Below are positions 4,821 to 48,579 of a DNA stretch of 64,000 nt, in pieces. Every line of letters begins with the position of its first letter. Positions within the stretch are counted from its first letter, which is position 1. The notes beneath the pieces were generated by a model that saw only the letters and a list, made by a program, of their open reading frames with translations, searched no databases and was not told where the DNA came from. The stretch lies in contig SGBD01000001.1 of assembly GCA_004195035.1 (NCBI GenBank), forward strand, positions 664,368 through 728,367, given 5' to 3'. Made by a program: the position numbers and the translations under genes. Source of the stretch: Candidatus Acidulodesulfobacterium ferriphilum. GTDB taxonomy: Bacteria; SZUA-79; Acidulodesulfobacterales; Acidulodesulfobacteraceae.

Positions 4821-4866
4821 TAAAATCTATTATGTTTCACATGAAACATAATAGATTTTTGTTAAT
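4821..4866. terminator. Palindromic stem after hldD followed by T tract
   Basis: A near-perfect inverted repeat at 4822-4860 (arms of about 19 bp, one central mismatch) begins 11 bp after the hldD stop and ends in a run of T. It can serve as an intrinsic terminator. Its core is a parS-like 16-mer, so the same DNA may have two roles. Confidence 0.55.
4833..4848. promoter_or_regulatory. parS-like ParB binding site (one mismatch)
   Basis: TGTTTCACATGAAACA differs from the bacterial parS consensus TGTTTCACGTGAAACA at one central base. It is one of three such sites in the window, all on the same side of dnaA. Its role as a centromere site is inferred from sequence; no parA or parB is in the window. 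Confidence 0.65.
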
Positions 4867-13692: not shown

Positions 13693-13986
13693 TTAACAAC
13701 ATTCCTTGGACAACGAGCTGTCGCAGTCGCACGAAGGCGCGCCGCCGCTTATCATCCCGTTTATTATGCCCGATGCGCATCCTACTCCGGAATTTACGGA
13801 AATTGCCCCATATTTGCAGTTAAGGGCGCAGGCGCCGCATTCCATACATAAGTCCTTATCGGCAACGCCGACTTTTTTATTTTTTAGTCGAAATACTCCA
13901 TGGGGACATACGTCGATGCATACAAAACAGTTAGTGCATTTTTCGGCAAAAAATTTAAGGCTCGATACATTCTTAAGATATTTCAT
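13693..13986 (-). CDS. hgcB: HgcB, ferredoxin partner of mercury methylation
   Basis: 97 residues. Two [4Fe-4S] motifs occur: C17-x2-C20-x2-C23-x3-CP and C47MECGACALNC57. The latter is the signature second cluster of HgcB. Cys70 in GVGCASGIING and the terminal vicinal pair Cys96-Cys97 match the extra cysteines known to matter in HgcB. Its ATG overlaps the hgcA stop by 4 bp (ATGA), so the two are translationally coupled. HgcB reduces the HgcA corrinoid so that it can accept a methyl group; it may also hand Hg(II) to HgcA. The C-terminal CDCDS region adds Cys86 and Cys88. Confidence 0.96.
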   Translation of the reverse strand: MKYLKNVSSLKFFAEKCTNCFVCIDVCPHGVFRLKNKKVGVADKDLCMECGACALNCKYGAISVNSGVGCASGIINGMISGGAPSCDCDSSLSKECC

Positions 13987-15050
13987 ATAACCGCCAATTT
14001 ATGAAGTTTATAAATTATCAACAAAACAATAGATATAACAGTAGATATTAAATAAACCGGCAGGGCTGTTTTCAATTCCTTTTTTACTCCGGACATATTT
14101 GTAAATGTCGTAGAACCCGTAAATTGCAATGCTAAATACGAGCTTGCCATAGGAAAGAAAAGAATTGCCGAGATAAAAATTAGAATATTTTTTAGCTCTG
14201 GTGAATTAAACAGGAAAATTACAGGGGCGGTTAATAACATTCCGGTTATCCAGCCTTTTAAGGCAAATGAACGAAAAGGTATAAAAGGAAGGGCGGCGGG
14301 AGTTATAAACGAACCTGCTATAATACTAACAAGTCCAAGCAACAGAAAAGGCTCTCCGTAAACCCATGCGCTTTTAAATAAAATGCCCGTCGGCTGAATA
14401 CCGAAAAATAAAAGTATAATAGCTGCAAAAATAATAAATTTATTCATTGCCGGAATAATTTCTCTCGGCGTAAGAATAAGCCTGTCTAAAATAGAAAATT
14501 TAATTTTTCTCATTTCCGGAGTTTTTCTTCTGCCGGAATTTAAATAAGCTTTAATGTCTTCTGCATACACGGGACCGAAATAAACTTTAAACCCCGTCCG
14601 TTTAAAAACGGAATCGGCATTAACGCCGACCGCTCCAAGCTGGGGAAGTATTATCCGCCTGTGATTTAAAAAATTTCCGAGTTTAACCCCGCCTATCCGC
14701 TTTACAAGCTCTTCGGTGCCGAATGTCCCTTTTCCTGCGGCGCACCAGACATTTATTCCTTTTGTATCTAATACTAATATCCACGCACTCAAGCCGCTTA
14801 ATGCTTTTCTAAGAATATCGAAGCTTAATTTATAATTTGCGCTTGCAAATACCTCGGAATTCGCATCCGGTTCGCCGACAGCATACAGCCCCGGTTTAAT
14901 CCTATATTTCATCCTGAACGAATTACTTATCCTGCATTTTATGGAGCCTGAATAATCCGGGCGCGACCACTCCGAAGAAACCCTGTTAACCTTTTCAAAC
15001 TGGTCCGGCTTTTTACAAAACTCTAAAATATTTATGTTTTCATTAATCAT
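13983..15050 (-). CDS. hgcA: HgcA, corrinoid protein of mercury methylation
   Basis: 355 residues. The diagnostic cap-helix motif NVWCAAGKGTFGTEEL is at residues 100-115, with Cys103 as the lower-axial cobalt ligand. The N-terminal corrinoid-binding domain (about 1-185) is followed by five membrane segments (about 200-350), as in known HgcA. It transfers a methyl group from its corrinoid to Hg(II), forming methylmercury. It lies 61 bp after arsC on the same strand, and the gap holds an exact parS. No Shine-Dalgarno sequence precedes the ATG at 15050. The gap shows no hairpin with a U tract, so read-through from the ars operon is plausible. Confidence 0.97.
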   Translation of the reverse strand: MINENINILEFCKKPDQFEKVNRVSSEWSRPDYSGSIKCRISNSFRMKYRIKPGLYAVGEPDANSEVFASANYKLSFDILRKALSGLSAWILVLDTKGINVWCAAGKGTFGTEELVKRIGGVKLGNFLNHRRIILPQLGAVGVNADSVFKRTGFKVYFGPVYAEDIKAYLNSGRRKTPEMRKIKFSILDRLILTPREIIPAMNKFIIFAAIILLFFGIQPTGILFKSAWVYGEPFLLLGLVSIIAGSFITPAALPFIPFRSFALKGWITGMLLTAPVIFLFNSPELKNILIFISAILFFPMASSYLALQFTGSTTFTNMSGVKKELKTALPVYLISTVISIVLLIIYKLHKLAVI

Positions 15051-15086
15051 TATTTACAAATTTTTCATTTTAAATTTTATATTTTA

Positions 15087-15102
15087 TGTTTCACGTGAAA
15101 CA
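15087..15102. promoter_or_regulatory. Exact parS consensus site
   Basis: TGTTTCACGTGAAACA is an exact match to the bacterial parS consensus. It lies in the arsC-hgcA gap, and the dyad continues about 8 bp on each side (15079-15110). No T tract follows it in the direction of transcription, which argues against a simple terminator. Confidence 0.85.
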
Positions 15103-15111
15103 TAAAATATT

Positions 15112-15537
15112 TTAAATAATAGTTTTTAGAAAATCTTTTACTCTAATTTCAATTTCATCCCTGATTTTTCTAAAAAAATCAAGTTTTTCTTCTTCGCTTC
15201 CCTCGACATTCGCAGGATCCAATAAATCCCAGTGAAGATTTTTAGTTTTTGCCCCTACATACGGACAGTTATCTTTAGCATCTCCGCACAAAGTAATTAT
15301 ATAATCGGCATTTGTTAAATCTATATCGTCCAAAGATTTTGATTTATATTCGGTTAAGTCGATGCCTTTTTCAGCCATAACCTTTACAGTTAATGGATTT
15401 ACCGGCTTGGGGGATACCCCTGCGCTCAAAATTATCAAATTTTTATCTTTGTAAATCTTTTCCTTTAAATCTCTGGTAAATCCTTCTGCCATTTGACTTC
15501 TTGCAGAGTTTCCCGCGCATAAAAATATGATTTTCAT
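15112..15537 (-). CDS. arsC: Arsenate reductase, thioredoxin-coupled type
   Basis: 141 residues of the low-molecular-weight phosphatase fold. The P-loop is Cys7-AGNSAR, and the redox relay cysteines are Cys84 and Cys91 (ITLCGDAKDNCP). The DP of the family (LLDPANVEGSEEEK) is present. The second P-loop cysteine of S. aureus ArsC is Ala here. It reduces arsenate to arsenite, which ArsAB can export. It starts 11 bp after arsB with a strong GGGGGG site and is the last ars gene before hgcA. Confidence 0.96.
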   Translation of the reverse strand: MKIIFLCAGNSARSQMAEGFTRDLKEKIYKDKNLIILSAGVSPKPVNPLTVKVMAEKGIDLTEYKSKSLDDIDLTNADYIITLCGDAKDNCPYVGAKTKNLHWDLLDPANVEGSEEEKLDFFRKIRDEIEIRVKDFLKTII

Positions 15538-15548
15538 TGCCCCCCCAT

Positions 15549-16868
15549 TTAAAATTTCACCAGCATTCCCAAATAAAGACCCAAAAGCGTAACAAATAAT
15601 ACGGGGATTGTTAAAATTATTCCTATTTTAAAGTAATAACCCCAGCTTATTTTAATTCCTTTTCTTTCCAATACATTAAGCCATAATAAAGTCGCCAGCG
15701 AACCGATCGGCGTAATTTTAGGTCCCAAATCGCATCCTATAACATTAGCATATACGGCAGGTTTCAGCATTATGCTTTTAAGATTTGCCGAATGAATCGC
15801 AAGGGAATTTATCATTACCGTCGGCATATTATTCATAATCGAAGACACAAAAGCAGCCAAATACCCTGTATAAATCGTTAAAACAAAACCGCCGAAACGG
15901 GAAAAATAAGAAATAGACCTGCCGAGCAGCTCGGTTAAGCCTACATTCTTTAAACCAAAAACAACAAGATACATTCCGATTGAAAATATCACTATGCTCC
16001 ACGGGGCGTTTTTAAACACACTTTTTAAATTAACGGCCGGGCTCTTAAAACCCATAAAAGAAAATATAATTGCAAACATTATTGCAAAAAGCGAAACGGG
16101 AAGGTTAAGAAACTCGCTTGCAAAATAACCGCCTAAAAGCAAAACCAGAATTAAAAAAGAATATTTAAAAAGTTTTTCGTCTTTTATGGCATCTTTAGGT
16201 ATTTTTAATGAACCGACATCATAACGGGCGGGAATATCTTTCCTGAAAAAAAGATAAAGCGCGCAAGCCGAAATTACAATAGAGAAGATATCGGGTGTAA
16301 ACATATTTATAAAATATGTAAAAAAACCTATATTGAAATAATCCGTTGATACAATATTTACAAGGTTTGAAGTTTTTAACGGAAGCGATGCCGTATCGGC
16401 AATAAATCCTCCCGCTATAATAAACGGAAGCATATTTTTCCTGTTAAATTTAAGCGCCTTCATCTTTTCATATACTATAGGCGTGATAATAAGCGCGGCT
16501 CCGTCATTAGCAAATAAAGCGGCAACTAATGCTCCAAGAAGTATAACGTATATAAATAATTTTCTGCCGCTTCCCCCCGCAAATCTTGCAATATGCAGTG
16601 CCGCCCATTCAAAAAAACCGACTTCGTCAAGTATTAAAGATATAATTATCGTGGCCACGAAAGTAAATGTCGCATCCCATACAATATCAATAACTTTGAA
16701 AATATCGATATATTGTATTATGCCGAAAATAAAGGCTAAAACCGCGCCTATTACGGCGCTGTAACCTATTCCTATATTGTAGGGCTTTTTTATAACAAGA
16801 AAAAGCGTGAATAGAAAAATGGCTATGGCAAAAATAATTTTATATTCATGAGATAATAGTAAATCCAT
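15549..16868 (-). CDS. arsB: Arsenite efflux permease ArsB
   Basis: 439 residues with about 12 membrane segments. Family landmarks include ALFANDGAALIITPIVYEKM, SIMNNMPTVMINSLAI and IGCDLGPKITPIGSLATLLW. It exports arsenite and antimonite, alone or energised by ArsA, which is encoded directly upstream. It belongs to the ArsB family, not Acr3. The start at 16868 has an AAGGTG about 11 nt upstream. It lies between arsA (57 bp) and arsC (11 bp). Confidence 0.96.
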   Translation of the reverse strand: MDLLLSHEYKIIFAIAIFLFTLFLVIKKPYNIGIGYSAVIGAVLAFIFGIIQYIDIFKVIDIVWDATFTFVATIIISLILDEVGFFEWAALHIARFAGGSGRKLFIYVILLGALVAALFANDGAALIITPIVYEKMKALKFNRKNMLPFIIAGGFIADTASLPLKTSNLVNIVSTDYFNIGFFTYFINMFTPDIFSIVISACALYLFFRKDIPARYDVGSLKIPKDAIKDEKLFKYSFLILVLLLGGYFASEFLNLPVSLFAIMFAIIFSFMGFKSPAVNLKSVFKNAPWSIVIFSIGMYLVVFGLKNVGLTELLGRSISYFSRFGGFVLTIYTGYLAAFVSSIMNNMPTVMINSLAIHSANLKSIMLKPAVYANVIGCDLGPKITPIGSLATLLWLNVLERKGIKISWGYYFKIGIILTIPVLFVTLLGLYLGMLVKF

Positions 16869-16925
16869 AGTATATATGCACCTTTATTGTAAAGATTAAA
16901 ATAAATATTACGGAAATATATTTAG

Positions 16926-18680
16926 TTAAAATACGCTGGAATAAAGCGCGTCCAAAGTTTTTTGATTATTAATCCCGCCTGAATATTGCGGTATCGTAAA
17001 AAGAGGAATGCCAAATTTTTGCTTTATAGATTCAAGATAAGTCTCCTGCATTTTCTTCCTGCCGTTAAAAAAACTGTCGTTAAAATTACCGCCGAGAATA
17101 TAATTTACAATCAGAAAGGAGGTATTAATCCCTGCCGCTTTTAAATCGTCGTATGCCCTTTTGGCTTCCTCAATCGGACTGTATTCGGGATAAAGGCAGA
17201 GCGAAAATATGGTTTTATTTGTATTTTTAAGTATTTTAACAAATTCTTCAAGCCTTGCATCTTTCTTGTCCATTTTTGCGTATTCCAAACTGATATATAA
17301 AAGCCTTAAGGCATGACCGGTGGGCGCGGCATCGAAAATTATAACATCGTAATCTTTATACCCAAAAAAGTAACTGCTGAATTTTTTAAAAACGGCAACC
17401 TCTTCGGTGCAGGGGGAGTTTAACTCCTCTTCCAAAACCTTAAGCGATTGTTCATTATTTGAATAAGATTTAAAATATTCGACGGTATTTTTCTTATATT
17501 CATCCAGAGCCGAATCGGGGGAAATTCCGGCAAAATAGAGATTATCGTCATCCTCCGACTTTACGGGAATCCCGCCGATAATTTCTAATCCGGTTATTTT
17601 TGCGATATGCCCTGAATAATCGGCGGAAACCACTAATGTTTTCATTCCTTTGTCCGCAAAATATTTCCCGAACAAAAGCGAAGACACGGTTTTACCTGTC
17701 CCCCCTTTACCCGTGAAAAACAGGTAAAACGGCGCCTTTTGAGGCGTTATATTTTGAACAAGTTCATTGTTTTTTTGTTTAATGTCGATTTCGTCCGTAA
17801 AAGCAATTTTATCTTCATCGGAATTTTCAATCAAATTTAAAAAAAAGACGGTCAGCGACCTTAATCCCTTTACCTCATTCTTTTTTAAATTTATTTTTAA
17901 GGTTTTAAAGCCCATTGAATCTATTTGTTTTAAAATTTTCCTCTGGTCTGCAATAATATCTTTAAATTCCGCCTTGCGATATAATTCATCCGGTAAAATA
18001 GCATTTACAATGATTTCAATATTTGTTATGCCGAACTTTTTTACTTCTTCGGTTGAATTTTTAATTTCGAGCAAATCGAGTTCTTTTGGATGCATTACAA
18101 ATACGAAAGTTGTAAGTTCCGGGTCTTTTAATCCGTTCAGGGCAGTTTTATATTGATTATAATATCCGTCAATATTTACTACAGGACCCATACAGGTCTG
18201 TCCCGCGCCTTTTTTAACTTCATCGATATATGCCGTCCATTCCATAGGCAGTTCAAGGAGTCTTAAAGTGTGGGCGGAAGGAGCCGTGTCAAATATAATA
18301 ATGTCGTAATCTTTCTTAAGAAAAAGCCCGGTAAAACTGTTAAAAAAAGCTATCTCGGAGGTGCATGGGGATTTAAATTCTTCTTCGATAGAATTTAGAA
18401 CCTCTTCAGGCAAGAACTCTGCGCTGTCCCCTAGAACCTTTTGTTTATACTTTAAGACCTCCGCATCCGAATCCATTTCTACCGCGTAAAGATTTTCAAA
18501 TCCTTCAATCTTTTTTTCGGTACTTCCTATTTTTTGTTCAAAAACATCGCTCAGGTTAGAAGCCGGGTCGGTCGAAACAATCAATGTTTTTTTCCCTTCA
18601 AGCGCGAACCTCACGGCAAATGCCGATGATATGGTCGTCTTGCCGACGCCTCCCTTGCCGTGAAAAAAATAATAATGCAT
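16926..18680 (-). CDS. arsA: Arsenite-stimulated ATPase ArsA, two-domain
   Basis: 584 residues with two homologous halves. The P-loops are GKGGVGKTTIS (about residues 9-19) and GKGGTGKTVSS (about 330). Each half has a DTAPSAHTLRLLELP- or DAAPTGHALRLL-type signal sequence. Metal-site cysteines are seen in SPCTSEIAF, GQTCMGP and SPCTEEVAVF. It forms the ATP-driven ArsAB pump. The 38-bp spacing to arsD fits co-expression with that chaperone. Length matches the classical duplicated ArsA. Confidence 0.97.
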   Translation of the reverse strand: MHYYFFHGKGGVGKTTISSAFAVRFALEGKKTLIVSTDPASNLSDVFEQKIGSTEKKIEGFENLYAVEMDSDAEVLKYKQKVLGDSAEFLPEEVLNSIEEEFKSPCTSEIAFFNSFTGLFLKKDYDIIIFDTAPSAHTLRLLELPMEWTAYIDEVKKGAGQTCMGPVVNIDGYYNQYKTALNGLKDPELTTFVFVMHPKELDLLEIKNSTEEVKKFGITNIEIIVNAILPDELYRKAEFKDIIADQRKILKQIDSMGFKTLKINLKKNEVKGLRSLTVFFLNLIENSDEDKIAFTDEIDIKQKNNELVQNITPQKAPFYLFFTGKGGTGKTVSSLLFGKYFADKGMKTLVVSADYSGHIAKITGLEIIGGIPVKSEDDDNLYFAGISPDSALDEYKKNTVEYFKSYSNNEQSLKVLEEELNSPCTEEVAVFKKFSSYFFGYKDYDVIIFDAAPTGHALRLLYISLEYAKMDKKDARLEEFVKILKNTNKTIFSLCLYPEYSPIEEAKRAYDDLKAAGINTSFLIVNYILGGNFNDSFFNGRKKMQETYLESIKQKFGIPLFTIPQYSGGINNQKTLDALYSSVF

Positions 18681-18718
18681 GTTTTATTTCTCCGGTTTAT
18701 CTTAAGATTAAGTTAAAT

Positions 18719-19045
18719 TTACGAAGATAACGAAGAAATATAACTATAAACCTCTTTTTCTTCGGGGTATCTCCCGTATGTTATAACCTTTCCGTTTAAG
18801 ATGCAAACCGGCAGGGCGGCTTTGCCTTCATTTTTAATTAAGAGCTGAACCGAAGGATTTTCAAGGAATTTCTTTGGTTCCTGCGATATTGTCTGTCTTT
18901 TGATTTCAATATATTCGCCGAAATCCGCTTTCAATTTGTCGATTAAATTCCTTGCTTTTATAAGTTTTTCATCTGGATTTGGACCGCAAACGCCGGTGGA
19001 ACAACAAAGCGCCGGGTCAAAAATCTCAAAAACAATCTTATTCAT
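18719..19045 (-). CDS. arsD: Arsenic metallochaperone ArsD
   Basis: 108 residues. It opens with IVFEIFDPALCCSTGVCG, with the arsenite-binding cysteines Cys14, Cys15 and Cys20. The rest is a thioredoxin-like fold ending VCILNGKVITYGRYP. ArsD delivers arsenite to ArsA and also weakly represses the operon. An AGGAGG ribosome site lies before the ATG. It sits 41 bp after arsR. Confidence 0.96.
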   Translation of the reverse strand: MNKIVFEIFDPALCCSTGVCGPNPDEKLIKARNLIDKLKADFGEYIEIKRQTISQEPKKFLENPSVQLLIKNEGKAALPVCILNGKVITYGRYPEEKEVYSYISSLSS

Positions 19046-19086
19046 ATAGCCTCCTGCCTCCTTTTAAAAAATTTAATAAATCAGGT

Positions 19087-19419
19087 TTAAACAGCGCATA
19101 TTTTGTCATCGCAATCATTGCTTTTAGCTTCTTTTAAATTTTTAATTCCAAATGAATTATCATAAAGGTTTTCGATTTCTTTAAATGCTTCCCCGTTAAG
19201 AGAATAATAAACCCACTTCCCTGCTTTCCTTCCGTTAATTAACCCCGCCTTTTTTAATGCAGATAAATGATGCGAAACTAATGTCTGTTCCATACCAAGT
19301 TCGTTATAAATAACGCATACGCATTTTTCTCCGTTTTTTAATTCGGAAACGATTTTGAATTTGCTTTCGTCGCCAAGCAGTTTGAAAAAATTTTTGAGTA
19401 CCAACTCATCCTTTGTCAT
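19087..19419 (-). CDS. arsR: ArsR-family arsenic-responsive repressor
   Basis: 110 residues with a winged-helix fold; the recognition helix reads EQTLVSHHLSALKKAGLI. The alpha-3 metal site is Cys33-Val-Cys35 (KCVCV), as in E. coli-type ArsR. A further Cys103-x4-Cys108 pair sits at the C terminus and may add a site. It is first in the ars operon and just downstream of a 30-bp palindrome that is its likely operator. If transcription continues into hgcAB, it would also control mercury methylation. Confidence 0.95.
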   Translation of the reverse strand: MTKDELVLKNFFKLLGDESKFKIVSELKNGEKCVCVIYNELGMEQTLVSHHLSALKKAGLINGRKAGKWVYYSLNGEAFKEIENLYDNSFGIKNLKEAKSNDCDDKICAV

Positions 19420-19460
19420 AAATTTACACTATATTAAAAATTAAAGAATAATGAAAAATC

Positions 19461-19519
19461 TAAATATATGAATTATAATTCATATATTTATGATATAACT
19501 TTTTATTTTATATTGTCAA
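19461..19519 (-). promoter_or_regulatory. ars promoter and ArsR-type palindromic operator
   Basis: A perfect 30-bp palindrome spans 19461-19490, centred on ATGAATTATAATTCAT. Upstream on the minus strand, a TTGACA -35 lies at 19514-19519, and a TATATC/TATCAT-like -10 overlaps the edge of the palindrome. The operator would cover the start of transcription. The arsR ATG is 42 bp further on. Confidence 0.8.
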
Positions 19520-19578
19520 TAAATAATTTTATATTTTATATTTTATATTTTATGTTCAGCTTATTTTTAATTTACGCG

Positions 19579-20109: not shown

Positions 20110-20422
20110 GGTTTCCCTCCTTCTTTTGCCAAAGTTCCTTTATCTTTAGTTTATCTCTTGATTTGCCGTTTTTATGTGCTATATTAAATTATATCAACAA
20201 AATAAGAAAAATATATACTTTAATCCTGCATTAGAAATTTATTTTCTGGATTCCTGCTTTCGCAGGAATGACTGTGCGGGATTGAGGTTTTAACCCAACA
20301 GTTGTCATTCCTGCGAAAGCAGGAATCCAGAATTTACGTAAAATAGAAACATTTAAATATTTTCTAATGCAGGATTAAGGATATAATATACATTTATTTT
20401 TATTTGATTATACTTCAAAACT
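20110..20422. other. 313-bp intergenic region
   Basis: It separates the divergent PfpI-like and FAD enzyme genes. Most of it is occupied by a MITE-like inverted repeat (20221-20377). I saw no convincing promoter beyond general AT-rich sequence. Confidence 0.6.
20221..20377. repeat. MITE-like inverted repeat, copy 1 (TAATCCTGC ends)
   Basis: 157 bp with perfect 17-bp terminal inverted repeats (TAATCCTGCATTAGAAA and its complement). Inside are two opposed hairpins with the core ATTCCTGC-TTTC-GCAGGAAT, bounded by CTGGA and TGAC. No coding capacity. The inner core is shared with four other copies in the window, but these outer ends are unique to this copy. Confidence 0.85.
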
Positions 20423-23843: not shown

Positions 23844-24107
23844 TTAACTTTCCGGCTTCAGGATATCTTTCATCTCTTTTACATCTCTCACTATTACCTT
23901 CCACCACCAGTTAAAAACTTCGACCTTGTCGCTTAATTCATTGACTTTACGCTCAATATATGTTTCATTTTCATTATTCACAAAAAGTTTTTTTACATCT
24001 CCGTCATAACTATATATTTCTTCTAAGTAGTCTTTAATATTGTCTATTTCTATCAACAAACTTTGTATAGTATCTTGAAAATCTTCATTTTTTTCCGTTT
24101 TATCCAT
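23844..24107 (-). CDS. Small hypothetical protein downstream of merA
   Basis: 87 residues, acidic, rich in charged residues and predicted to be mostly helical (possible coiled coil at about 10-30 and 48-80). There is no cysteine, signal peptide or membrane segment. A WWW triplet lies at about residues 67-69. It begins 26 bp after the merA stop on the same strand and so probably belongs to the mer transcript. I do not recognise the family, and the lack of cysteine makes direct metal binding unlikely. Confidence 0.65.
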   Translation of the reverse strand: MDKTEKNEDFQDTIQSLLIEIDNIKDYLEEIYSYDGDVKKLFVNNENETYIERKVNELSDKVEVFNWWWKVIVRDVKEMKDILKPES

Positions 24108-24133
24108 TGTTTTACCTCACCTATATCATTAAA

Positions 24134-25834
24134 TTATGCGCAGCAGCTGAGTTTGCTGACATCTTTGGTAAATGTTTGAGCAGCCAGCTTAAGTCCTTCC
24201 GCCATAGTAGGATAAACGCCTATTTCTTCGCCGATTTGCTGAATTGTATAACTATTTTGAATATAAACGCTTGCCTGCTGGATTGTTTCCGACGAGTTGT
24301 GCGCTAACATATGAATTCCGATAACCTTGTTTGTTTTTTTATCCGCTATCATCTTTATCAGCCCCTCCGTTTTAAAAATAGCCTGGGCTTTAGGAACGAA
24401 TTCGACCGGAAAAACAACCTTAATTACATCATAGCCTTCTTTTATAGCCGCTTCCTCCGTTAATCCGACGGAAGATACTTCAGGGTCGGTAAATGTCGTA
24501 TGCGCAACGGAAGAGTAGTCCGCTTTTATATGTTTGCCGTGAAGCATGTTACCTGCGGCTATCTTGCCGTCATACGCGGCAGTCGTAACTAACCTCATTA
24601 AACCGGTAACATCGCCGCAAGCATAAATATCGGGATTCATAGTCTTAAGTTCGCCGTCCACTTTAATAAAACCCTGTTTATAGGTTTCGACGCCGACAGC
24701 CTCCAAATTTAAATCTTCGGTATTCCCTACAACGCCGGTTGCCATTAAAAATTCATCGAACTTGACCGTTTTCAGCCCTTCTCCCGTTTCAATTTCGGCA
24801 TATTTTTTGCCGTCCTCTTTATAAAGGCGTTTTATAGAGGAGTTCAGTAAAAACTCTATTCCTTCGTTTTTTAAGATTTGCAAAAGCGACTCCGAGATTT
24901 CGGGCTCTTCATTAAGCAAAATCCTGCCTGAACGCCCTACCACTACCACCTTTGAACCGAATCTTCTAAACATCTGGGCAAATTCAAGCGATACTGCCCT
25001 TGTGCCCAATATTAAAAGTGTTTCCGGCAGGTAATTTAAGTTTAATATCTCTTCGTTTGTAATATAGCCGGCCTCCCCCAATCCTTTAATATCTATTATC
25101 TGGTTCGTCGAACCCGTCGCAATAATAAATTTATCCGAGGTAATTTTATAAGGGTCTATGTTTTTATCGTTCGGGATAACCTCAATCGAATTTTTTGACG
25201 CAAAACTTCCTCTGCCTTCTATAAATGTAATATTGCCGTAACCCCTTAATACATTATAATATTTCATTTCCCTAAGGCTGTTAAGAAGTTCGGTTTTCAC
25301 TTTTATGAGTTCTTTTATGTCAATCCGCGCCTGCTTTGTTTCTATGCCTTTAAATTTATTACTCAAAGGTTCGTAGTATATTCTAGCCGCTTCCAAAAGA
25401 TGTTTTGAAGGAACACAGCCCCTGTTAAGGCATGTGCCGCCTATAACCCAGTTTTCGATAACGCACACTTTTTTGCCTTCGTCGGCAAATTTAATAGCCG
25501 AGGAAAAAGCGGCAGAACCGCTGCCTATTATTATTAAATCGTAATCATAATTATGGTTTTTGCCGGTCTGACTATTATTGTCCGCCTCCGTCTTTTTTTC
25601 TTCGGCTTCCGAAACATAGGCGGTTTCGTGAGATAAGGGGGTATAGCCGGCATTTTCTATATTTTTCTTTATATCTTCAACTTTTATGTCGTCTAATGCC
25701 AAAATCGTGCTTTCTTTTTTCGATAAAGAAGTATCTACTTTAATAACCCCCTTTACTCTATTTATCGCTTTATTTACAGATGTAACGCAGTGTTCGCAGG
25801 TCATACCCTCAACATTTATTTTTATTTTCTTCAT
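24134..25834 (-). CDS. merA: Mercuric reductase with N-terminal HMA domain
   Basis: 566 residues. The N-terminal heavy-metal domain has GMTCEHC (Cys13, Cys16). The FAD-disulfide core has IIIGSGSAAFSSA and the redox pair Cys135/Cys140 in GGTCLNRGCVPSK. The C terminus ends in SCCA, with the vicinal Cys564-Cys565 that distinguish MerA from lipoamide dehydrogenase. It reduces Hg(II) to volatile Hg(0) with NADPH in the cytoplasm. It lies 103 bp after merT. A remnant of a second merA copy is at 27485-27580. Confidence 0.97.
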   Translation of the reverse strand: MKKIKINVEGMTCEHCVTSVNKAINRVKGVIKVDTSLSKKESTILALDDIKVEDIKKNIENAGYTPLSHETAYVSEAEEKKTEADNNSQTGKNHNYDYDLIIIGSGSAAFSSAIKFADEGKKVCVIENWVIGGTCLNRGCVPSKHLLEAARIYYEPLSNKFKGIETKQARIDIKELIKVKTELLNSLREMKYYNVLRGYGNITFIEGRGSFASKNSIEVIPNDKNIDPYKITSDKFIIATGSTNQIIDIKGLGEAGYITNEEILNLNYLPETLLILGTRAVSLEFAQMFRRFGSKVVVVGRSGRILLNEEPEISESLLQILKNEGIEFLLNSSIKRLYKEDGKKYAEIETGEGLKTVKFDEFLMATGVVGNTEDLNLEAVGVETYKQGFIKVDGELKTMNPDIYACGDVTGLMRLVTTAAYDGKIAAGNMLHGKHIKADYSSVAHTTFTDPEVSSVGLTEEAAIKEGYDVIKVVFPVEFVPKAQAIFKTEGLIKMIADKKTNKVIGIHMLAHNSSETIQQASVYIQNSYTIQQIGEEIGVYPTMAEGLKLAAQTFTKDVSKLSCCA

Positions 25835-25937
25835 GATTTTCTCCTGTATTTATAATGTTCGCAATAAATGTTGCGAATATATGTTATTAATAATAAACAT
25901 TTACGCAAAGACAGGCAGGCAGTTTGTCTTCCCCGCC

Positions 25938-26396
25938 TTACAGTTGCGGCCACGCCATAAAAATCTGGCCGGTATCGACATATAAATATATGAATATCAA
26001 GGCCGTAATCAATATAGACGAGAAAAAAACTATCTTGCTAAAATTAAGCGAACCAGCCGATGCCTCGCAATCGCATGATTCTCCGCCTGCGCTTTCGCCG
26101 ATATTAGATGCACTTTTTTGTAAAGATATTTTCGGCATTATATAAATAAAGAAAAAGGATAAAAGGATGCCGACAATATTTAATATCAAGAAATAATTTC
26201 TGTAAGGCGAGATAACTCCCAGAAAAGAGGCGGTGGAACCTAAAACTCCCCCTGTGCTTGCACCCACTCCCAGTATGCTGAAAACTAACGGTCCCCAGCA
26301 GCAAGCCCCTCCCAAAATTGCGAACAGGGCTGCGGAACCGGAAGTTACACTGGAGCTTGCGCCGGAAATTGCGTTAGACATATTTTTTGTTTTCAT
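25938..26396 (-). CDS. merT: Mercuric ion transporter MerT
   Basis: 152 residues with four likely membrane segments (about 22-42, 46-62, 66-88 and 122-142). The first carries the vicinal Cys32-Cys33 in GGACCWGPLVFS, the MerT signature. A cytoplasmic loop pair occurs at Cys108 and Cys110 (ESCDCE). It moves Hg(II) inward for reduction by MerA. The extra membrane segment relative to the three-segment MerT of Tn21 resembles MerT variants with four segments. It lies between the merP-like gene and merA. Confidence 0.9.
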   Translation of the reverse strand: MKTKNMSNAISGASSSVTSGSAALFAILGGACCWGPLVFSILGVGASTGGVLGSTASFLGVISPYRNYFLILNIVGILLSFFFIYIMPKISLQKSASNIGESAGGESCDCEASAGSLNFSKIVFFSSILITALIFIYLYVDTGQIFMAWPQL

Positions 26397-26474
26397 AATA
26401 CTTTACCTCTTTGCTTATTTACATAATTAATAATTAATAAATAATTAAATTAATCGATATATTATACCGTTAAT

Positions 26475-26861
26475 TTATTTTATATAATGGGCGGTATAAT
26501 GAAACATGGCGTTCGATGCGCCGTCTATTGCCTTTATAAAGGTTTCGGGCGGAATGTTTCCGTGAAACTTTACTATTGCCTCCTGATTTTCCATATCAAC
26601 TTTTGCCGAAACAACCCCTTTTATCTTATATAACGCATTCTGAATAGAGGTTATGCAAAAAGTATCCCCGCACACAAGCCCGTAAACTTTAAATTTATCC
26701 GTATTAAGAGCGTTTGTCTTCGTAAAAACGGCAGGCGTAAGCGCCCCCGAAACGGCGTTTTTTTGATAGACGAATGCCGATACCGACGATACCTGCAAAG
26801 CTAAAATCAAAACAGCGAAAATACCCGCAATAACATTTTTCCAATTTAAATAACTTTTCAT
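26475..26861 (-). CDS. MerP-like periplasmic metal-binding protein
   Basis: About 128 residues. An N-terminal signal or anchor segment (residues 8-29, ending VSSVSAF) is followed by an HMA-like domain from about residue 57 (VYGLVCGDTFC, ALYKIKGVVSAKVDMEN). The usual C-x2-C is replaced by Cys64-x4-Cys69, so the binding loop is two residues longer. Position first in the mer operon supports a MerP role, bringing Hg(II) to MerT. The ATG at 26861 has a GGAGG site 5 nt upstream and is preferred to the codon at 26873. Confidence 0.78.
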   Translation of the reverse strand: MKSYLNWKNVIAGIFAVLILALQVSSVSAFVYQKNAVSGALTPAVFTKTNALNTDKFKVYGLVCGDTFCITSIQNALYKIKGVVSAKVDMENQEAIVKFHGNIPPETFIKAIDGASNAMFHYTAHYIK

Positions 26862-26923
26862 AAAAACCTCCAAATCGTTTATTTTTTATAATTTTTCTTT
26901 TTTATTCCAAACTCAATATTTAT

Positions 26924-26955
26924 ATTTTACACCTTATACTTTGGTATAATGTCAA
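26924..26955 (-). promoter_or_regulatory. mer operon promoter with MerR-type operator
   Basis: On the minus strand, TTGACA (26950-26955) and TAAAAT (26924-26929) are 20 bp apart, a stretched spacer of the MerR-activated kind. The spacer holds the dyad TTATAC-CAAA-GTATAA (26934-26949), centred between the two elements. It drives the merP-like, merT and merA genes. Confidence 0.8.
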
Positions 26956-27027
26956 GCTTTTTTTAATATAAATATATGATAAAATAGATGTTTAAAATAT
27001 TAATAGGATTTACAATAAAAAAATGTC

Positions 27028-27059
27028 TTGATATTATGTTTAACTATAAGGTTTATAAT
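27028..27059 (+). promoter_or_regulatory. Promoter of merR, a second MerR-type operator
   Basis: On the plus strand, TTGATA (27028-27033) and TATAAT (27054-27059) are again 20 bp apart. Aligned over 32 bp with the mer promoter, 24 positions match, including TATAAGGT next to the -10. The dyad is weaker than in the mer promoter. This suggests that MerR also acts on its own promoter. Confidence 0.65.
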
Positions 27060-27086
27060 TGTATTATGAAGGGAAGATAAAAAAAT

Positions 27087-27482
27087 ATGACTATCGGACA
27101 GTTAGCCAAAACGGTTAATTTAAACACCCAAACCATAAGGTATTACGAGCGCATAGGGTTAATTAATAAACCCGATACAAATGAAGCGGGATACAGGATA
27201 TATCCGGAAAAGGCTGCCGATGTTTTGCGTTTTATAAAACACGCAAAGGATATCGGTTTTTCCTTAAAGCAGATTTCCGAACTTTTTTCATTAGATAACA
27301 ATAAATATAACACCTGCTCGAATGTGAAAAAGTTGGCCGAAGAAAAAGTCTATGAAATAGACAAGAAACTTAATTCTTTAAATCTGATGCGCAAAGAGCT
27401 TTTAAATCTTATATCGTTATGCGAAGAAAAAACCGATAACCAAAGGTGCCCGATTTTAGATATTTTAAAGTTCGAAAGTTAG
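27087..27482 (+). CDS. merR: Mercury-responsive regulator MerR
   Basis: 131 residues. The helix-turn-helix TIGQLAKTVNLNTQTIRYYE and the wing NEAGYRIYP are those of MerR. Mercury-binding cysteines are Cys77 (before the dimer helix), Cys112 and Cys121, with the diagnostic C-x8-C spacing of Hg(II)-sensing MerR. It is divergent from the mer operon and would activate it through the stretched promoter at 26924-26955. It ends 2 bp before a merA fragment. Confidence 0.96.
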   Translation: MTIGQLAKTVNLNTQTIRYYERIGLINKPDTNEAGYRIYPEKAADVLRFIKHAKDIGFSLKQISELFSLDNNKYNTCSNVKKLAEEKVYEIDKKLNSLNLMRKELLNLISLCEEKTDNQRCPILDILKFES

Positions 27483-27591: not shown

Positions 27592-28011
27592 TTATTTATT
27601 CAGATAATTCCTTATTTCATCTATAAAGTTTATAAAATCGACTAAATGGTTCTTGAATATTTCGTAAACAATAGAATCGTCAACATCATCGTAAGAGTGG
27701 ATTATTAAATTTCTAAATTTAGCCATAGATTCATAGATTTTAAAATTTTTTGCCGATATTATGCCGCTTGACGAAATAATTTCAAAACATTCGCCGTAGG
27801 ATCCCGGTTCCTTAAGATCCAGCCCTCCTACTAAGTGTTTGCAGACGTCTATCATCTGCTCTATACACAATTCGATATTTCTTTCTATAAACCTTTTTGC
27901 CATCACGTTATTTTTAAATTCCTTGAACGAATCTACTTTAACAGGTTCAATCTCGTTCAAAAATTCTTTTATTTTGCGCAGTTTTTTTTCTATTAACACT
28001 TTATCTATCAT
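27592..28011 (-). CDS. hepT: HepT-like HEPN toxin
   Basis: About 139 residues, helical, with the HEPN catalytic motif R-x4-H-x-Y as RNLIIHSY. HepT toxins are RNases held in check by MntA, which AMPylates the motif tyrosine. The start is best placed at the ATG at 28011 (MIDKVLIEKK), which overlaps the end of the mntA gene by 11 bp; the frame open to 28047 would overlap more. The antitoxin gene lies directly upstream, the usual order for this pair. Confidence 0.9.
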   Translation of the reverse strand: MIDKVLIEKKLRKIKEFLNEIEPVKVDSFKEFKNNVMAKRFIERNIELCIEQMIDVCKHLVGGLDLKEPGSYGECFEIISSSGIISAKNFKIYESMAKFRNLIIHSYDDVDDSIVYEIFKNHLVDFINFIDEIRNYLNK

Positions 28012-28444
28012 ATTTGTCCATCCCTGAGATATATTTATATTCGTCATATTGAGATATTACGTTTTCCCTGAATTTCCCAAAAAATTTTTCGTCTTTTATA
28101 ACGAGGTTTATCTTGTTTTTCATAACCTGATGCTTAAAAAGCGGCGAGCCGCCGTTAAGGATAGCTAAGTGTGCTTCCATTCCAGCAATTTTAGATAGTT
28201 TATCGATTTCGCGAAGAATTTCAAATCCGGTCGGAGGGTTTTCGTATAGAACGGCAATATCTAAATCGCTGTTCTTCCCCATCCTTTTAGCGGCAAAAGA
28301 ACCAAATATAAAAGCAAGCATTATATTATCATCTTTATATAAAAAGTCCTTTAATTTTAATATATTATCATTGCTTATCGTATTAATATTAGTTGGATTA
28401 GTATTCATATTATTATTCATAATATTAAAAATAATATCAAACAA
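28001..28444 (-). CDS. mntA: MntA-like nucleotidyltransferase antitoxin
   Basis: 147 residues or fewer. The minimal nucleotidyltransferase motif GSFAAKRMGKNSDLDIAVL fits G-S-x10-D-x-D. It would AMPylate and neutralise the HepT toxin encoded downstream. The N-terminal ~25 residues are Asn/Thr-rich with several possible ATG codons, and none has a good ribosome site, so the start is uncertain. The pair follows the merA scar and may be an inserted module. Confidence 0.9.
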   Translation of the reverse strand: MFDIIFNIMNNNMNTNPTNINTISNDNILKLKDFLYKDDNIMLAFIFGSFAAKRMGKNSDLDIAVLYENPPTGFEILREIDKLSKIAGMEAHLAILNGGSPLFKHQVMKNKINLVIKDEKFFGKFRENVISQYDEYKYISGMDKYDR

Positions 28445-35644: not shown

Positions 35645-35806
35645 CAAAATTGCCGATAGAAACTCTTAAAACTGCTTCAAAATATTATCAATACTGGATT
35701 CCTGCCTACGCAGGAATGACAATCCCTGCATTTAACTTTTCATCCAACAGGCGTCATTCCTGCGTAGGCAGGAATCCAGAAAAATAATTTTCTATCGGCA
35801 ATTTTG
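35645..35806. repeat. MITE-like inverted repeat, copy 2 (CAAAATTGCC ends)
   Basis: 162 bp with perfect 18-bp terminal inverted repeats (CAAAATTGCCGATAGAAA). It carries the double hairpin core CTGGATTCCTGCCTACGCAG. Direct copies of GTGCCGGG lie at 35635-35642 and 35806-35813 and could be a target duplication. It is the same element as copy 5 in opposite orientation. Confidence 0.88.
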
Positions 35807-44159: not shown

Positions 44160-44561
44160 TTGTTATTTATCGAAACTCTTAACCTCCCCCTTTCTTTTAA
44201 AAATTATTTACTTATTTATCTATATAAAATAAATAAAAATTAAATGTAAATTAAAGCAAACTTTTAGATTATAACAAAAATTAAAAAATTAGCAAGAAAT
44301 ATTTAATACCCAAATCCCGATTTAGAAATTTATTTTCTGGATTCCTGCCTACGCAGGAATGACTTTACCTAATTTATCGTTTCACCCGTTGGATGTCATT
44401 CCTGCGTAGGCAGGAATCCAGAATTATTAATGCGTTGCAGTATTTTTAACAATCTCTATCGGCAATTTTGGGTAATTTTTCAATAAGTTATTAATTCTTT
44501 TATTCTTTTTAGGATATAATATTAGTAAATAATAAAAGAATACTCTAAGGGGGCATATATT
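44160..44561. other. 402-bp intergenic region
   Basis: It lies between the divergent hydrogenase-like operon and the small gene at 44562. It contains MITE-like copy 3 (44307-44474) and AT-rich flanks that presumably include both promoters, although none was clear. Confidence 0.55.
44307..44474. repeat. MITE-like inverted repeat, copy 3 (mixed ends)
   Basis: 168 bp. The left end TACCCAAATCCCGATTTAGA is of the CCCGATTTAG type, and the right end CTATCGGCAATTTTGGGTA is of the TTGCCGATAG type. The inner double-hairpin core is intact. It looks like a hybrid of two element types. Confidence 0.82.
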
Positions 44562-46333: not shown

Positions 46334-46509
46334 TTATAACCCTAATCCCGATTTAGAAATTTATTTTCTGGATTCCTGCTTTCGCAGGAATGACTTTGAG
46401 AGGATTTATCGTTTCACTCGTTGGGTGTCCCAACCCGCTTCAGCAGGAATCCAGATTTGCTTAGCATTGGAATATATAAATATTTTCTAAATCGGGATTA
46501 GGGTTATAA
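46334..46509. repeat. MITE-like inverted repeat, copy 4 (CCCGATTTAG ends)
   Basis: 176 bp with perfect 26-bp terminal inverted repeats (46334-46359 and 46484-46509). The left core hairpin is intact (TTTC loop), but the right arm is eroded. It starts 2 bp after the upstream stop codon and ends 6 bp before a parS-like site. Confidence 0.88.
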
Positions 46510-46515
46510 GATTTA

Positions 46516-46531
46516 TGTTTCATGTGAAACA
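46516..46531. promoter_or_regulatory. parS-like ParB binding site (one mismatch)
   Basis: TGTTTCATGTGAAACA is the exact reverse complement of the variant at 4833-4848 and differs from parS consensus at one central base. It lies between a MITE-like repeat and the 3' end of mnmG, 13.4 kb from dnaA. Confidence 0.7.
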
Positions 46532-48416: not shown

Positions 48417-48579
48417 CAAAATTGCCGATAGAAATCTTTGAAACTGTTTCAACATATTATAAAATTCTGGATTCCTGCCTACGCAGGAATGACGCCTGTT
48501 GAATGAAAAGTTAAATTCAGGGATTGTCATTCCTGCGTAGGCAGGAATCCAGAAAAGAAATTTTCTATCGGCAATTTTG
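48417..48579. repeat. MITE-like inverted repeat, copy 5 (CAAAATTGCC ends)
   Basis: 163 bp with terminal repeats of the CAAAATTGCCGATAGAAA type. The inner 32 bp are nearly the reverse complement of copy 2 (two differences), so it is the same element inverted. The double hairpin core is intact. Confidence 0.88.

Follow-up and report, generated by a model that had tools for sequence, protein, structure and literature searches.

The mercury methylation genes hgcAB of Candidatus Acidulodesulfobacterium ferriphilum stand at the end of an arsenic resistance operon and behind a parS site, and the most probable explanation is that arsRDABC, parS and hgcAB form a coherent, exchangeable cassette, transcribed as a single ArsR-repressed transcript running from arsRDABC through parS into hgcAB. 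The stretch analysed (the window, 64,000 nucleotides) represents bases 664368-728367 of contig C1 in a genome of 1.87 Mb on 7 contigs.

All seven genes are located on the minus strand. The first is arsR (19087-19419), encoding an ArsR/SmtB repressor with a CVC motif (Pfam HTH_5, NCBIfam HTH_metalloreg), followed by the arsenite metallochaperone gene arsD (18719-19045; NF033727, above cut-off), arsA for a two-domain arsenite pump ATPase (16926-18680; PF02374 and TIGR00345, above cut-offs), the arsenite efflux permease gene arsB (15549-16868; TIGR00935, above cut-off) and arsC (15112-15537), encoding a thioredoxin-linked arsenate reductase of the low-molecular-weight phosphatase type (PF01451, above cut-off). 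ArsC is full length and scored 151 bits against the equivalog TIGR02691, below its cut-off of 174. The five genes run in one direction with close spacing, and the complete arsRDABC operon described in the first-pass annotation is backed by Pfam or NCBIfam profiles for every member. After a gap of 61 bp (15051-15111) follow hgcA (13983-15050), encoding the corrinoid mercury methylation protein (NF040863, 390 bits, cut-off 275), and directly downstream, with a 4-bp overlap, hgcB for the ferredoxin (13693-13986; NF040864, 113 bits, cut-off 99). HgcA carries the cap helix sequence NVWCAAGK at residue 100 and C-terminal hydrophobic segments from residue 198 on, consistent with its membrane part, while HgcB contains two CX2CX2CX3C (4Fe-4S) clusters, Cys70 and the terminal pair Cys96-Cys97. 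Since HgcA and HgcB pass curated cut-offs with their diagnostic residues in place, and the ars genes were confirmed by the profiles, the earlier observation of a seven-gene run on one strand, with its gene identities and 61-bp spacing, was correct.

The ars operon is preceded by a sigma-70-type promoter, TTGACA-18-TATCAT (19490-19519, minus strand), which matches the consensus at 11 of 12 positions and is the best in the region. Directly after its -10 box lies a 28-bp perfect palindrome, AAATATATGAATTATAATTCATATATTT (19462-19489), a predicted ArsR operator; it occurs once in the window, without a second copy near hgcA, and was absent from shuffled sequences. The same promoter-operator layout before arsR was found in six relatives (G002, G008, G021, G022, G023 and G025) and was ambiguous in G012, near a contig end. 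The operator core is conserved among the relatives, and the CVC pair of ArsR is kept in 9 of 9 aligned copies.

Most of the gap between arsC and hgcA is taken up by a 32-bp perfect palindrome (15079-15110), overlooked in the first-pass annotation, within which lies an exact copy of the 16-bp parS core TGTTTCACGTGAAACA (15087-15102), the only exact match in the genome. A whole-genome search allowing up to two mismatches yielded four parS-like sites, all in C1:660840-710898; the other three have one mismatch each, and two more of the four fall in the window, after an epimerase gene (4833-4848) and beside gidA (46516-46531). The parB gene is found at 659 kb of C1 with parA adjoining, gidA at 711 kb and dnaA at 725 kb, and the cumulative GC skew has a broad minimum at approximately 700-765 kb. 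ParB, encoded 20 kb from the hgcA-side site, has an HTH_ParB domain and a GERRYR motif, known from CTP-binding ParBs. By these markers, the region is the chromosome origin region, and the site before hgcA is a parS in both sequence and position: its core is exact, and it is one of a few sites clustered near the origin and parAB in a genome encoding a cognate ParB, which is expected to bind at 15087-15102. Because parS occupies the junction, a transcript reading from arsC into hgcA must cross the predicted ParB complex.

The palindrome might alternatively act as RNA, in the form of an attenuator or terminator hairpin, or as the operator of another regulator, with no ParB site involved. The 76 nt around it have an RNA fold z-score of -3.65, the hairpin is stable in eight species (-8.9 to -19.1 kcal/mol), and the arms beyond the 16-bp core pair despite sequence differences between species. 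However, the sequence after the stem is A-rich, not U-rich, and gave no score in the terminator scan; the exact 16-mer with extended arms also stands beside parA and gidA, including in genomes that lack hgcA; and the ParB described above is encoded 20 kb away. This explanation is thus very improbable. Elsewhere in the family parS is found beside parA, gidA and an alcohol dehydrogenase gene, in many cases with extended palindromic arms, and the parS flanks contain 392 paired flank cells vs 272 +/- 13 in shuffles. Many sites of the family (e.g. L139:2672, L137:10670 and L128:4039) lie within perfect palindromes of up to 40 bp whose arm sequences vary.

The first-pass annotation had reported no terminator between arsC and hgcA, and an intrinsic terminator search of the gap likewise found none. 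Read-through from arsC into hgcA is plausible, because the gap holds neither a terminator nor a conserved local promoter before hgcA, and read-through into hgcAB would be the simplest model; induction of methylmercury formation by arsenite would then be expected. Either the ParB complex or the hairpin could stop or weaken this read-through. Taken further, hgcAB may be a separate transcription unit that parS/ParB or the hairpin insulates from the ars genes, their adjacency being positional and without arsenite drive. Such a unit could start from a promoter-like sequence between the two genes (GTGAAA-16-TAAAAT, 15094-15067), and it would agree with the retention of hgcAB when the upstream gene changes, as in G016, where a nuoB-like gene takes this place and ars genes are lacking, and with the repression by Pseudomonas aeruginosa ParB of genes beside intergenic parS sites (PMC5521831). 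However, the promoter-like sequence is weak, such matches in the region are at the shuffle level (20 found vs 20.9 expected), and, judged by eye, neither the G008 nor the G016 leader keeps this one; as the sole weak match, at background frequency and unconserved, it was rejected as a local hgcA promoter. The upstream gene is, moreover, codirectional and close at every parS-hgcA locus, and a separate unit is considered rather unlikely.

The family set comprised 30 genomes, 11 of them with hgcA; for the most part the relatives are metagenome-assembled genomes on short contigs, in which gene loss and missing sequence are not always separable. Nine of the 11 have a parS with 0 or 1 mismatch immediately 5' of hgcA, and at eight of these nine loci its distance to the hgcA start codon is 35-56 bp (36 bp in C. 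A. ferriphilum). The gene before parS is arsC of arsRDABC in C. A. ferriphilum, in G023 (arsRDABC-hgcAB) and in G021, where arsRDABC-hgcA is followed by the contig end; arsC also precedes parS in G002 (arsRDAC-hgcAB) and, after arsR, in G025. In G008 this place is held by arsA, G012 and G022 have a reduced arsR-parS-hgcAB order, and in G016 a nuoB-like gene precedes parS-hgcAB without ars genes. The first-pass annotation had proposed a search for the same gene order in related genomes, and its recurrence in G023, in G021 up to the contig end and, as arsRDAC, in G002 makes misassembly very unlikely. Two genomes, G006 (split over two contigs) and G007, carry hgcAB without parS, and in the hgcA-less G003, G004, G005 and G018 no parS was found after the ars genes. 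Among 80 hgcA loci (1.17 Mb in total) searched with up to two mismatches, parS was present in six, all from this family, and in 0 of 74 from other lineages.

The parS site is thus a more constant companion of hgcAB than the ars genes are, the link being the tighter one because G016 keeps parS-hgcAB without ars genes, although neither partner is obligatory for hgcAB, given the lack of ars genes in G016 and of parS in G006 and G007. The nine parS-hgcA loci overstate their independence, since they are related by descent and transfer. In G008 and G012, remnants of the arsC 3' end adjoin parS (by eye), and for this reason arsC-parS-hgcA looks like the ancestral order, from which ars genes would have been deleted later. 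In G025 a parS is found behind the nuoB-like gene as well, and the G016 layout could stem from a deletion between such a site and the hgcA parS. In G022 (L033, contig C3, 4000-4689), the first ~80 residues of ArsC continue in frame into HgcA from residue ~143, the two parts meeting at the short shared sequence AATGCCGATT; this fusion looks like the product of a deletion in which parS and the HgcA cap helix were lost, or else like a binning or strain artefact.

In the GidA tree C. A. ferriphilum falls beside its congeners G001 and G002, whereas in the HgcA and ArsA trees it groups with G008, G021 and G023, which belong to another genus. In AU tests, grouping with G002 was rejected for HgcA (p 0.0001), grouping with G002 and G003 for ArsA (p 1e-63), and grouping with G008, G021 and G023 for GidA (p 7e-7); because these groupings were chosen once the trees had been inspected, the p values serve as guides. 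Over approximately 13.7-19.55 kb of the window, the DNA is 86-91.5% identical to that of the other genus, and this identity drops sharply at both borders, while with G002 of the same genus the cassette is 73-77% identical vs 82-90% for the flanking genes. Given the sharp borders and conflicting trees, the exchanged block begins with the arsR promoter, closes with hgcB and contains parS, and this unit of about 5.9 kb (13693-19550) has crossed between genera. No integrase or plasmid carrier for the transfer was identified, hgcA had no match in the plasmid and viral collections, and searches for Rfam elements near the cassette and for tRNA genes, as insertion sites, in the window gave none. The HgcA of G007 (L026), a genome from another genus whose hgcA lacks a parS, clusters strongly with that of G012 (L027), hinting at a second hgcAB transfer within the family.

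What parS does at this position is a separate question from transcription. The probable answer is that it is an ordinary origin-region centromere site, kept for segregation only and without effect on hgcAB, a reading compatible with the single ArsR-controlled transcript favoured here. Elsewhere in the family, parS sites keep to fixed positions (parA, gidA, the alcohol dehydrogenase gene), and clustering near the origin is common for chromosomal parS sites (PMC7022226). That parS accompanies hgcAB but is missing after the ars genes of genomes lacking hgcAB, and that it moved along with the transferred cassette, argues against a purely segregational role; both points are suggestive, not decisive. 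The site might instead belong functionally to hgcAB, ParB at the leader setting or timing hgcAB transcription on top of ArsR, with the parS copies aiding recombination of the cassette into sites near the origin; this is unlikely, and the idea that ParB loaded 36 bp before hgcA tunes its expression is speculative. If true, it would tie mercury methylation to chromosome segregation, for example through cell-cycle timing.

In the model that we infer for the transcript as a whole, ArsR would repress the promoter ahead of arsRDABC-parS-hgcAB, and arsenite or another thiophilic metal would release ArsR, switching on one long transcript which would provide arsenic detoxification and, by crossing parS with its putatively bound ParB, the HgcAB pair.

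A few kb from the cassette, the window contains a mer operon (23844-27482) with merR (27087-27482) on the plus strand and, on the minus strand, genes for a merP-like HMA protein (26475-26873) and a merT-like membrane protein with GGACCWGP (25938-26396), and merA (24134-25834; above the NCBIfam cut-off). With this operon near hgcAB, the genome has genes for mercury reduction as well as for mercury methylation. A search for MerB in the family gave no match, but control genomes likewise gave none, so that the result does not speak for its absence. In G008, hgcB is followed on its strand by merP-like, merT-like and 87-aa genes (L022, 7365-9085), so that the run there is arsRDA-parS-hgcAB-merP/T-like. 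A HepT-MntA type VII toxin-antitoxin pair adjoins merR (27592-28444). The window also carries a repeated inverted-repeat element of REP/MITE-like type, in which CATTCCTGCGAAAGCAGGAATCCA and its variants face each other ~30 bp apart (20244-20332, 35695-35778, 44338-44420, 46369-46392 and 48468-48551); one copy adjoins the parS at gidA.

How hgcAB is regulated and what its native role is are open questions in the field. A complete arsenic efflux operon moving between genera together with hgcAB, probably under one common promoter, strengthens the view that mercury methylation genes form part of metal(loid) stress responses, and leads to the prediction that methylmercury could rise with arsenic in mine waters. 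The parS at the junction adds a new, directly testable factor to the regulation question.

Regulation of hgcAB by an ArsR-like protein, with a response to arsenic, is described for Pseudodesulfovibrio mercurii ND132 (Gionfriddo et al. 2023, cited in PMC10349881). As far as the available account of that work goes, an ArsR-family gene lies there upstream of and codirectional with hgcAB, which resembles the arsR-parS-hgcAB order of G022 and G012, whereas in C. A. ferriphilum the full arsRDABC separates arsR from hgcA and parS precedes hgcA; co-transcription was shown in ND132, while here gene order, strand and the missing terminator would fit it. Arsenic genes beside hgcAB, as in this genome, were also reported for hgcAB neighbourhoods with acr3, arsC, arsM and arsR (PMC7438021) and for contigs with arsC, acr3/arsB, arsA and arsD (PMC10349881); in the available portions of these two reports, a complete arsRDABC ahead of hgcAB under one conserved ArsR promoter is not described, and parS is not mentioned. 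Metagenome-assembled genomes of candidate phylum SZUA-79 from acid mine drainage carry hgcAB (PMC9948709), and these are probably the same lineage and the same genes as in this genome; arsR, gene order and parS, all described here, go unmentioned in that text. A parallel to the junction is found in P. aeruginosa, where ParB represses genes beside parS3 and parS4 (PMC5521831): as here, parS is intergenic and near a gene start, and an exact core lies near parAB and the origin, although the neighbours of parS3 and parS4 are not metal genes and the ParB effect was measured there, while our comparison draws on DNA sequence. Among the papers searched, none combined hgcA with parS or ParB. The association of ars genes with hgcAB was thus already known, whereas the parS at hgcA and a cassette exchangeable between genera appear to be new.
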